The notes under the pieces: model-generated | What the model saw: only the letters and a program-made list of their open reading frames with translations | What the model was told of the DNA's origin: nothing | Databases searched by the model: none | Origin: Peptococcaceae bacterium BICA1-7 | GTDB taxonomy: Bacteria > Bacillota > Desulfotomaculia > Desulfotomaculales > Desulfocucumaceae | NCBI GenBank assembly: GCA_000802095.1 | Contig: JUEB01000017.1 | Coordinates: 1-64,000 of the forward strand | DNA: 64,000 bases | Direction: 5' to 3' | Shown: in pieces, positions 46,020 to 49,362 of the stretch | Numbering within the stretch: the first letter of the stretch is position 1 | How the letters are laid out: every line of letters starts with the position of its first letter | Program-made: the position numbers and the translations under genes

Positions 46020-46718
46020 TTAAAGTCCCCTGCCCCTCTGCTGCAGCATAGTCAGGGAGAAGGTCACTATATAGGCCAGCACCATCAGAATAACACTCAG
46101 AGCAATGGCAATATCAAAATTTCCCTTGGACACTTCCATGGCGGTGGCCGTGGTGAGAACCCTGGTGGACCCGTAGATGTTTCCACCAACCATCATGGAC
46201 GCCCCAACTTCGGAGATAACCCCTCCAAATCCTGCGATAACGGCAGCCAAGAGCCCCATCCTGGCCTCCCTGACCAAAAGCCACAGCAGCTGCACCCTGG
46301 AGGCTCCCAGGGCGATAATCTGCAGCCTAATTTTGGGGTTCAGCTGGCCTATGGCGGCTATGGTAAAGCCGGTGACGATGGGCGCGGCAATAATGGCCTG
46401 GGCCACCACAATAGCCGCCGGCGTGTATATCATGTTCAAAAACCCAAGAGGGCCGGACCGCCAGAGGAATATGGCCACCCACAGCCCCACCACCACAGGG
46501 GGCAGCCCCATGCCGAAATTTACCAGGCTCACCACGGCGTTGCGGCCCGGAAAAACGGCCAGGGCCAGGAATACTCCCAGAGGAATACCTATCAGCACAC
46601 TTATAAGGGTTCCCATTCCGGAAACCTTCAGTGTCAGGAGGGTGATCCCCAATACCTCCCGGTCTCCCTGGACCAGCATTTCAAGGGCTTTTATAAGTCC
46701 CTGCCAGATTTGCTCCAT
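46020..46718 (-). CDS. tupB: tungstate ABC transporter permease
   Basis: A 232-residue membrane permease with five or six helices. The ModB/TupB-type coupling loop is IALGASRVQLLWLLVREAR (about 135-153), and a conserved AVIAGFGGVISEVGASMMVGG follows. The set with TupA and TupC indicates tungstate uptake. ATG at 46718 has GGAG upstream. A 248-base gap filled with dispersed repeats separates it from tupC, unusual inside a transporter operon. Confidence 0.88.
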   Translation of the reverse strand: MEQIWQGLIKALEMLVQGDREVLGITLLTLKVSGMGTLISVLIGIPLGVFLALAVFPGRNAVVSLVNFGMGLPPVVVGLWVAIFLWRSGPLGFLNMIYTPAAIVVAQAIIAAPIVTGFTIAAIGQLNPKIRLQIIALGASRVQLLWLLVREARMGLLAAVIAGFGGVISEVGASMMVGGNIYGSTRVLTTATAMEVSKGNFDIAIALSVILMVLAYIVTFSLTMLQQRGRGL

Positions 46719-46761
46719 AATTTAACTCCAATTTTTTTGCTAATACTGATAAAATATTTTA

Positions 46762-46956
46762 TCGGAGACGGGAGACAGAAGGTGCTGATCAGTATTTCCT
46801 TCTGCCAGGAGACGGTAGTTTTGCATGTCCGGCTTACAGGTGGGGTGGGATCAACATCTAAAAGCCTTGATGTTCAGCTACAGATGAACCATTCATTAAA
46901 TCAGATCTTATAAGGAGCTCACTATTCTCCCGTCTCCCGTCTCCTGTCTCCTGACC
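46762..46956. repeat. dispersed repeats inserted between tupC and tupB
   Basis: Units in both orientations: ATCGGAGACGGGAGACAGAA near 46761, GCCAGGAGACGG near 46805, and CCCGTCTCCCGTCTCCTGTC followed by TCCTGACC near 46930-46956. No terminator-like stem is evident, so the operon may still be read through. Confidence 0.6.
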
Positions 46957-46966
46957 GTAGAGCACT

Positions 46967-47689
46967 TCAGTATGAGCTTTGATAATAGCTCTTAAACACC
47001 TCTTCAAACCCGCCTGCAAAAAGCTGTGAGGCGCTGCCCCGGTGGCGCACCCCGCCCCCGGCCATAACAACGGTGTCATCGGTAAGATAGGGTATTTCAT
47101 TATAGTCATGGGTAACAAAAAATACAGTGGTGCGGGATTCTTTCAGTATGCCCCCCATTTCTTTCAAAAGAGAGATTCTGGTGGGGTAGTCCAGGGCGGT
47201 AAAGGGCTCGTCCAGGAAAAGAACCTCGGGCTCAAGGGCCATGGCCCTGGCAATATTGACCCTCTGGGCCTCCCCACCGGATAAAAAGGAGGGCATCCGC
47301 CCGGCCAGGTGGGATACTCCCAGCCTCTCCAGCCACAGGCCTACCCTGCCGGAGATCAATTTTTTGTCGGCTCCCCTGAGCTTCAGGCCCTGGGCCACGT
47401 TGTTGAAAACGGTGGTATTGAGCAGCAGCGCCTCCTGGAACACCACTGCCATCCTGCGCCGGTACTCCAGGGCATTGTTTTTTCCAGCCACCTGGCCATG
47501 AAAAAGCACCTGGCCCGTGGCCGGCTGCTGCAGAAGGGCCAGCACCTGCAGGAGGGTGCTTTTACCGGCCCCGTTGGGGCCGATAACAGCAACAATTTCT
47601 CCCTCCCTGAGCCCGAAATGCTCCACGCTCAGTATTTCCCTGCCTCTTTTTTTGATATTAATATTCTTTGCTTCCAGTATAAGCCGCAT
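46967..47689 (-). CDS. tupC: tungstate ABC transporter ATPase
   Basis: A 240-residue ATPase. Walker A GPNGAGKST, signature LSGGEAQRVNIARAM and Walker B VLFLDEPFTALD are present. The longest frame reaches 47815 inside tupA. The ATG at 47689, five bases after the tupA stop, gives the natural MRLILEAKNINIKKRG start. The ribosome site is weak, consistent with coupling to tupA. The C-terminus lacks the TOBE regulatory domain of ModC, as usual for TupC. Confidence 0.88.
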   Translation of the reverse strand: MRLILEAKNINIKKRGREILSVEHFGLREGEIVAVIGPNGAGKSTLLQVLALLQQPATGQVLFHGQVAGKNNALEYRRRMAVVFQEALLLNTTVFNNVAQGLKLRGADKKLISGRVGLWLERLGVSHLAGRMPSFLSGGEAQRVNIARAMALEPEVLFLDEPFTALDYPTRISLLKEMGGILKESRTTVFFVTHDYNEIPYLTDDTVVMAGGGVRHRGSASQLFAGGFEEVFKSYYQSSY

Positions 47690-47693
47690 ATTA

Positions 47694-48578
47694 TTATTTA
47701 CCCAGTTCTTCCACTTTCTTTCCGGCATCGGGGTAGAACAGTGACTGGCCGTACTTGTCTTTCCCGAAGTCTTCAATAATTTTCTGGGTTTCGGGGCTGA
47801 CCATGTATTCCACAAAGGCCTTGCCCCCGGCCCCGTTTACCCTGGCGAATTTGTCTGGGTTCACCTGCATGACGTGGTAAATATTGAGCAGGTCCTTATC
47901 TCCCTCAGACACTATAACCAGTTTGAGGTTTTTCTGCTGGGCCAGGAAGGTGGCCCGGTCGGTCAGTGTGTAGCCCAGCTTCTGGTTGGCAATGGTAAGG
48001 GTCTGGCCCATGCCGCTGCCGGTTTCCTGGTACCACTGCTTGCCCTTGGGGTCTATCTGGGCGGTCTTCCACATAGATTTCTCCTTTGTGTCGGTGCCGG
48101 ACTTGTCACCCCGGGAGACGAAAACAGCGCCCTTTTCGGCTATCTTTTTAAGGGCCTCTATGCTGCTCCCGGCCTGCTTTACCCCGGCCGGGTCATTTTC
48201 AGGCCCCACCAGTATAAAGTCATTGTGCATGACCAGTTGGTAATTTACAGCCACACCCTCATCCACCAGGGGCTTTTCAGAGCTCATGGCATGGGTCAGC
48301 AGAACATCGGCGTCTCCCTTTTTGCCCTGCTCAAGAGCCTGTCCGGTCCCTACAGCAATAGGCTTGACCTTGTAGCCGGTTTTCTTTTCAAAATAAGGTA
48401 TAAGCACATCCAAAAGCCCGCTGTCCTGGGTGCTGGTGGTGGTGGCCAGCACTATTTCCTTGCTCTCTGGAGCCTTGGCAGTATCCCGGGGGGCCTGTTC
48501 GGTTTTGGCCTGGCACCCTGCCAGGGCCATAGCCAGTACTATTATGGCGACCCAGACTAATACACTTCTTTTAAGCAT
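47694..48578 (-). CDS. tupA: tungstate-binding lipoprotein
   Basis: A 294-residue extracytoplasmic receptor. The signal peptide (MLKRSVLVWVAIIVLAMALA) ends in a lipobox with Cys at about 22. The oxyanion site of TupA is visible as ATTTSTQDSGLLDVLIPYF, and later SRGDKSGTDTKE matches the family's second anion loop. These TTTS and SRGDxSGT features separate TupA from molybdate ModA. AGGAGG precedes the ATG. It is first gene of tupABC. The leader contains two riboswitch candidates, so supply is probably tied to Mo/W cofactor status. Confidence 0.92.
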   Translation of the reverse strand: MLKRSVLVWVAIIVLAMALAGCQAKTEQAPRDTAKAPESKEIVLATTTSTQDSGLLDVLIPYFEKKTGYKVKPIAVGTGQALEQGKKGDADVLLTHAMSSEKPLVDEGVAVNYQLVMHNDFILVGPENDPAGVKQAGSSIEALKKIAEKGAVFVSRGDKSGTDTKEKSMWKTAQIDPKGKQWYQETGSGMGQTLTIANQKLGYTLTDRATFLAQQKNLKLVIVSEGDKDLLNIYHVMQVNPDKFARVNGAGGKAFVEYMVSPETQKIIEDFGKDKYGQSLFYPDAGKKVEELGK

Positions 48579-48725
48579 TCTATTCCTCCTAAGTTCTCAT
48601 CTTTTTTAGTTTTCCAGACCGGTTTAGGGAGGTATTCTCCGCAGCACCCGCCGCTTTAAGGCACACTCCCACTTTATAAAAGACACTGCCGGTCAGGTCA
48701 GTAAAAATGCATTCTCAATGTCATC

Positions 48726-48820
48726 TCTCCTTTCCGCAATGGGAGGCGCGCAGGTTTCCCCGGCACACCCTGTCGGCCCGCCAGCCGTGACAAATTGTTT
48801 TAGGCTGGAGGGCTCGGAGA
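48726..48820 (-). promoter_or_regulatory. Moco/Tuco-type riboswitch candidate, proximal copy
   Basis: Read on the minus strand it starts TCTCCGAGCCC and ends GCCTCCCATTGCGGAAAGGA followed by GA. Outer stem TCTCC/GGAGA; second stem CCAGCC (minus) with GGCTGG (48781-48786/48803-48808); then a segment with GGGGAAACC. The 3' block GCCTCCC, CnGGAAAGG matches what I recall of the E. coli moaA Moco RNA leader. The P3 hairpin seen in Moco RNAs is missing between the P2 strands, which would fit the tungsten-cofactor (Tuco) subtype. It lies about 150 bases before tupA and its 3' stem holds a ribosome-site-like GGAAAGGAG. Confidence 0.7.
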
Positions 48821-48908
48821 ATTTAACGGCAGAATTCAGAATGTTGAAGGCAGACACCCGGAGCCGCCTAAAGCAGCCATCAAGGAGAATGAAAATACGG
48901 TCCTTTTT

Positions 48909-49087
48909 AAGCCACAGAGGACACAGAGGACACAGAGTTTTTTATGACTTGCTCGAATGCTATATGAGGTTTCTATTAAAATAAATTGGAAAGGACTGAC
49001 AAAAATACTCTAATTTTCTACTCTGCTTCAGACCTGAGAGTAATGCCGATAGTAAATTCTCTGTGATCTCTGTGTCCTCTGTGGCTA
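48909..49087. repeat. MITE-like element, copy 2 (between the riboswitch copies)
   Basis: The stretch begins AAGCCACAGAGGACACAGAG and ends CTCTGTGTCCTCTGTGGCT. The interior aligns with copy 1 at 21511 (TTGCTCGAATGCT, TTCTATTAAAAT, TTCAGACCTGAGAGTAATGC). It is non-coding and sits between the two riboswitch candidates. Confidence 0.75.
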
Positions 49088-49146
49088 AAGAAGGACCTAA
49101 AATTCACTTTACTGCTTGGTCATATACTCTCCTGGACAATAACTAA

Positions 49147-49180
49147 AGGCCCTCATTGCGGATAGGGCAATGCAGGGCCT
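49147..49180 (-). terminator. strong hairpin after the distal riboswitch copy
   Basis: AGGCCCTCATTGC (49147-49159) pairs with GCAATGCAGGGCCT (49167-49180) with one bulge. The minus strand continues TTTAGTTATT. This could be the expression platform or terminator of the distal riboswitch. Confidence 0.6.
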
Positions 49181-49195
49181 GTTGGTCCGGCAAAA

Positions 49196-49296
49196 CTCTC
49201 TCCTTTCCGCAATGGGAGGCATACGGGTTTCCCCGCACACCCTGACGGTCCGGTGGCCGTAGCTGATTGACCTTAGGCTTTCCGGACTCGGAGAGT
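49196..49296 (-). promoter_or_regulatory. Moco/Tuco-type riboswitch candidate, distal copy
   Basis: On the minus strand it starts ACTCTCCGAGTCCGG and ends GCCTCCCATTGCGGAAAGGA followed by GAG, the same 3' block as the proximal copy. Outer stem CTCTCC/GGAGAG (49198-49203/49290-49295); second stem GTCCGG/CCGGAC; a CGGG-GAAA-CCCG hairpin with a GNRA loop. Between the P2 strands it carries about 28 bases (GCC...GGC possible), more than the proximal copy. Sequence identity is concentrated in the expected core, while helices differ by compensating changes, which supports a structured RNA. Confidence 0.7.
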
Positions 49297-49362
49297 AATA
49301 TAAATATGTCCTATAATCTAATTCTTCACCAAAATACCGTTTCCTTTTAGCAAGTGAAAATT

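Follow-up and report, generated by a model that had tools for sequence, protein, structure and literature searches.

The tup operon, on the minus strand of the window (the whole 64-kb stretch of DNA analysed), is preceded by two Moco RNA aptamers lying one after the other, and we consider it highly likely that the two work in series as OFF switches of the Moco class controlling tup. In the order of transcription, the leader runs from the distal aptamer through a hairpin, a spacer and the proximal aptamer to a stretch of about 130 nt in front of tupA (Table 1). We regard the arrangement as an ordinary tandem riboswitch with a variant of the expression platform that is possibly new.

Table 1. 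Features of the tup leader and operon, ordered by position in the window.
Feature	Position	Strand	Evidence
tupB-like permease	46020..46718	-	NF041773 E 1e-43 (under cut-off); NF038017 above cut-off
tupC-like ABC ATPase, start at ATG CGG CTT ATA	46967..47688	-	PF00005
tupA, tungstate-binding lipoprotein (substrate inferred)	47694..48578	-	NF041772 E 7e-69, under strict cut-off; 3lr1, 5my5
tupA ribosome-binding region TTAGGAGGAATAG	48580..48592	-	direct reading
Putative leader ORF, TTG AGA ATG CAT TTT TAC TGA	48698..48718	-	conserved behind five family aptamers
Proximal Moco RNA aptamer, P3-less	48711..48831	-	RF01055 72.3 bits, E 1.7e-15; lineage model R1 97.7 bits
Shine-Dalgarno-like AAGGAG in P1 3' strand of proximal aptamer	48727..48732	-	direct reading; pairs with CTCC in P1 model
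MITE-like repeat between riboswitches	48840..49113	.	inverted repeat arms 48883-48942 and 49054-49113
Terminator-like hairpin AGGCCCTGCATTG-CCCTATC-CGCAATGAGGGCCT, then weak U-tract TTTAGTTATT	49147..49180	-	fold, equivalents in relatives
Distal (transcribed first) Moco RNA aptamer, P3-less	49184..49305	-	RF01055 67.2 bits, E 5.2e-14; lineage model R1 97.5 bits
Aptamer segment CATTGCGGA (putative antiterminator strand)	49206..49214	-	exact complement of TCCGCAATG (49154-49162) in terminator

An Rfam cmscan over the whole window returned the two RF01055 matches as its only riboswitch matches, both of full length and each more than 30 bits above the gathering score of 36. As the sole riboswitch matches of the window, they lie far beyond chance, and the identification as Moco RNA offered in a preliminary description of this DNA is thereby borne out. 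The 3' block which that description reported in two segments is likewise present, as an exact 20-mer, GCCTCCCATTGCGGAAAGGA, found at both places (minus strand, starts 48728 and 49201, 473 bases apart) and nowhere else in the window. The span of 48726-49296 given there located both aptamers and clipped each of them slightly. Its account of the stems stood in part: the P2 helices do differ in sequence between the copies (GCCC..CCAGCC/GGCTGG..GGGC in the proximal and GTCCGG/CCGGAC in the distal one), but the pairs CCAGCC/GGCTGG and GTCCGG/CCGGAC are not position-for-position equivalents, the former being the inner half of the proximal P2 and the latter the outer half of the distal P2, and neither belongs to P1. 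The expectation that pairing is kept in homologues despite sequence change held well. Among 44 aptamers, 92.3% of cells were paired and double-sided changes occurred in 17 of the 28 pairs, with a covariation score of 0.42 as compared with 0.165 in shuffles, none of 500 reaching it, and at most 0.113 in slid controls. P1 was near-invariant, the covariation residing in P2 and in the GGAAAC-capped helix. The cores of the proximal and distal aptamers were 79% identical.

The RF01055 model positions for P3 are deleted in both copies. Moco RNAs that lack P3 correlate with tungsten-cofactor metabolism (Regulski et al. 2008, PMC2408646); the tungsten-cofactor (Tuco/Wco) subtype rests on this correlation, and no feature other than P3 has yet been put forward to tell Moco sensing from Tuco sensing (PMC2408646). 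Both aptamers are thus probably of the tungsten-cofactor type. In keeping with this, the host genome contains seven AFOR_C matches, comprising five clear genes for tungsten-type aldehyde oxidoreductases and two partial ones at contig ends, and only one clear modA. The genomic context is that of RF01055, whose members accompany Mo/W transport, cofactor synthesis or cofactor-using enzymes, with the tup operon downstream of this pair and a second doublet in front of a formate dehydrogenase gene.

The position before a tungstate importer, as previously described, was supported by tupA and the tupC-like and tupB-like genes downstream. The best matches of TupA among solved structures include the tungstate-binding proteins 3lr1 (E 7e-72) and 5my5 (E 5e-61). 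Because its score of 232 bits against the NCBIfam TupA model falls under the strict cut-off of 400, we infer tungstate as the substrate rather than assign it. The tupC-like and tupB-like genes are set apart by 250 nt (46719-46967) in which GGAGACGGGAGA is repeated together with its complement CTCCCGTCTCC, possibly another repeat element. Upstream, a sugar-kinase-like gene on the same strand is separated from the distal aptamer by only about 57 nt (49306-49362), so that transcripts from upstream may read through into tup; a sigma-70-type scan of the tup leader located no promoter. The idea that TTGAC of the conserved block forms part of a promoter was rejected, there being no matching -10 in the four genomes.

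The hairpin behind the distal aptamer folds at about -22 kcal/mol with its flanks and has equivalents in four related genomes (G001, G002, G005 and G007), though a plain terminator scan of the leader found nothing and did not call it. The predicted pairing of CATTGCGGA with TCCGCAATG is mutually exclusive with this terminator hairpin, as of an antiterminator, and an analogous complement recurs class-wide, the terminator loops carrying CTTTTCCGCA against UGCGGAAAGG. Without ligand, CATTGCGGA would pair with TCCGCAATG and the terminator hairpin would be prevented; with ligand, the 3' block would be held in the aptamer and the hairpin would form. The T-rich tails after the equivalent hairpins in relatives read TTTTTTT, TTTTATATTTTT and TCTTTTTTAT, as compared with only TTTAGTTATT here, and the distal switch of this genome is possibly a weakened one.

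Behind the proximal copy we found no clear terminator, and a classical antiterminator was ruled out there, as it has no complement of TGCGGAAAGG such as is found in the class-wide platform. What follows the proximal aptamer is a putative leader ORF of six codons, whose pattern in the family consists of AAGGAG in the P1 3' strand, 8-10 nt, a start codon, three variable codons, Phe-Tyr and UGA. Five sequences of the family carry it: four leaders of tupA, and in G006 the leader of an aldehyde dehydrogenase gene. In all five the start lies exactly 18 nt before UGA (21 nt from start to stop), with the Shine-Dalgarno distance and the inner codons varying. A search of 113 genomes with the exact pattern gave five places, all behind Moco aptamers of the family, and no control matches; with a looser pattern in 120 genomes, six of seven places lay behind Moco aptamers of the family. 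None of 105 other post-aptamer sequences had a six-codon ORF at the same position, and 8% had an ORF of any length between 5 and 12 codons. By chance alone, an in-frame start would be expected there in about 5% of cases per sequence, a figure that cannot be multiplied over the five sequences as these are related. Two codons upstream of the TTG of the leader ORF there is also an ATG in the same frame. In a sixth aptamer of the family (G006 C157), the TTTATTGAC block is present, a start codon is missing and a strong hairpin comes next; since the block occurs there without a start, its conservation at the RNA level is possible. On balance, we lean slightly towards the leader ORF being real and translated.

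Our tentative suggestion, which we hold with rather less than even confidence, is that the cofactor decides whether this leader peptide (start-x-x-x-Phe-Tyr-UGA) is translated, and that the ribosome, in place of an RNA-RNA antiterminator, decides downstream folding or termination. With ligand, P1 of the proximal aptamer would hold the Shine-Dalgarno sequence of the six-codon ORF and block its translation; translation of the ORF would keep the downstream RNA open by countering a hairpin or Rho, and tupA could then be expressed. Both switches are predicted to work in the OFF direction, such that tungstate import would be lowered when cofactor is plentiful. A regulatory role of the ORF is possible, if somewhat doubtful. 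Hairpins after the UGA reach about -16 kcal/mol in G007 and in the aldehyde dehydrogenase copy of G006 and -11 in G001, and are weak in G005 and in this genome, where the ORF, if it acts at all, may work via Rho, mRNA stability or another route. Full-leader folds were inconsistent between relatives, those of the tupA start region differing among four genomes, and we have not relied on them. Selenocysteine read-through of the leader-ORF UGA into tupA was also rejected, being in frame only in G007 and soon meeting stops in G000 and G005.

The two copies seem to carry different expression platforms, a terminator-like hairpin in the distal and a putative leader ORF in the proximal case. The host genome has four Moco RNAs, forming exactly two doublets. 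The second (C11:273418-273753; L035 4419-4754) precedes the formate dehydrogenase gene, which runs on beyond an in-frame stop, as would fit a selenocysteine enzyme, and a mobB-like gene lies upstream on the same strand. At tup, the two aptamers are of the same class, on the same strand and in series before one gene. This pair is kept before tupA in the family members G001 (53 nt between the copies) and G005 (65 nt), and on comparison within the family the aptamer pair is ancestral. In G007, a proximal-type aptamer is found at tupA and an aptamer with the distal-type terminator at a separate tupC-like gene, from which each aptamer-platform unit appears able to stand alone. An orphan Moco aptamer with terminator, its core 95% identical to the distal one, occurs in G002 (C60, L074) and is followed by a transposase-like ORF. 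In G006, a Moco doublet with the leader-ORF platform (C28:36266-36642; L072/L082) stands before an NAD-type aldehyde dehydrogenase gene; under cofactor shortage, such a doublet could let a metal-free enzyme take the place of a tungsten aldehyde oxidoreductase. With the lineage model, no Moco RNA was found upstream of tupA in G006 (L040, L083), and doublets or triplets were found before tupA in several more genomes of the class (for example L060, L086, L096, L100, L104, L106 and L111). This class-wide recurrence may mean that selection widely favours a steep feedback on the uptake of tungsten.

The 352-nt spacer between the copies is mostly a MITE-like repeat with 60-nt inverted arms carrying CACAGAGGACACAGAG, and about 40 full-length places of it occur in the genome. 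Its ends near 49113 and 48840 were taken from an alignment of 13 copies and are approximate, the latter lying about 20 nt before the proximal core. The repeat is absent between the aptamer copies in G001 and G005, and since these relatives have the doublet without the repeat, the comparison suggests that the insertion is younger than the doublet. Some copies of the repeat are close to aldehyde oxidoreductase genes (C5:34338 and C33:394524).

One alternative is that neither copy departs from a conventional Moco/Wco switch: the proximal one would act directly on tupA, either translationally or through an unrecognised terminator, and the "leader ORF" would have arisen by accident within a conserved RNA segment (TTTAYTGAC). 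We judge this quite plausible, falling not far short of an even chance. The TTTATTGAC block behind G006 C157, which has no start codon and a strong hairpin next to it, would fit this reading; the fold predicted for this genome allows a CCTCC stretch to pair with the Shine-Dalgarno sequence of tupA; and a ribosome-binding site embedded in P1 is the known arrangement of E. coli moaA (PMC2408646). However, an accident of this kind sits poorly with a start-to-stop length fixed in five sequences whose Shine-Dalgarno distances and inner codons vary, and with the low chance of an in-frame start per sequence; the folds of the tupA start region also differ among the four genomes.

It could also be that the distal copy is a decaying remnant in this genome, disabled or cut off by the MITE-like repeat and the degraded U-tract, so that only the proximal copy regulates tup. 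The short U-tract as compared with the longer T-runs of relatives, the roughly 270 nt of repeat between the copies and the G002 orphan beside its transposase-like ORF are all consistent with this. Even so, we consider it unlikely, as the distal aptamer is intact, scoring practically the same as the proximal one with the lineage model, and both the terminator hairpin and the complement of the putative antiterminator are intact. Far less probable still is that the aptamers sense different ligands, one Moco and the other the tungsten cofactor. The two-input control raised in the preliminary description would require this, and the 79% identity of the cores leaves some room for it, but as P3 is missing from both aptamers, they do not differ in the sole proposed discriminator (PMC2408646); two-input control is therefore unsupported. 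The "steeper control" that was offered beside it is the published reading of such tandems. We prefer the reading of two serial OFF switches with aptamers of one P3-less type.

With this leader, a tungstate importer is added to the targets of tandem Moco/Wco riboswitches, and the case is well supported. As natural aptamers that share a target, the two copies are also suited to testing the tungsten-cofactor specificity of P3-less RNAs, which was proposed in 2008 from correlation. If the proposed mechanism is true, one operon would be read by a transcriptional and a translation-gated Moco/Wco switch in series, and if the leader-ORF reading holds, its platform is one that we did not find described for the Moco/Wco riboswitch class in the literature searched.

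Tandem Moco/Wco RNAs are already published (PMC2408646, PMC9481103), and the arrangement itself is not new. Tandem Moco RNAs were reported in Syntrophomonas wolfei and Geobacter metallireducens (Regulski et al. 2008, PMC2408646). The S. wolfei triplet is entirely P3-less and stands before transport and biosynthesis genes; each of its first two copies is followed by a terminator, the third by a long gap (PMC2408646). In comparison with these tandems, the doublet described here is split by a MITE-like repeat and has a candidate leader ORF in its final platform. A survey of pseudo-cooperative tandems (RNA Biol 2022, PMC9481103) counted 13 Moco doublets and 2 triplets, plus tandem Wco RNAs. The tup pair resembles them in being a same-class doublet, in which each aptamer may likewise have a platform of its own, and seems to differ in that the platforms are unlike between the copies; the Wco tandems of that survey precede genes unrelated to cofactor synthesis, and the target here is tungstate uptake. 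A short translated uORF is involved in the effect on the main gene in the B12 riboswitches of M. tuberculosis (PMC11260477), as is likewise proposed here, although these belong to another ligand class and another lineage, and translation of the uORF was shown experimentally there, whereas here conservation points to it. The E. coli moaA riboswitch (PMC2408646) is of the same aptamer class and, like the proximal copy, has a ribosome-binding site inside P1. It is, however, a single copy with P3, as opposed to the two P3-less copies found here, and its P1 covers the ribosome-binding site of the target gene, whereas the proximal P1 of the tup leader covers that of the putative six-codon ORF.
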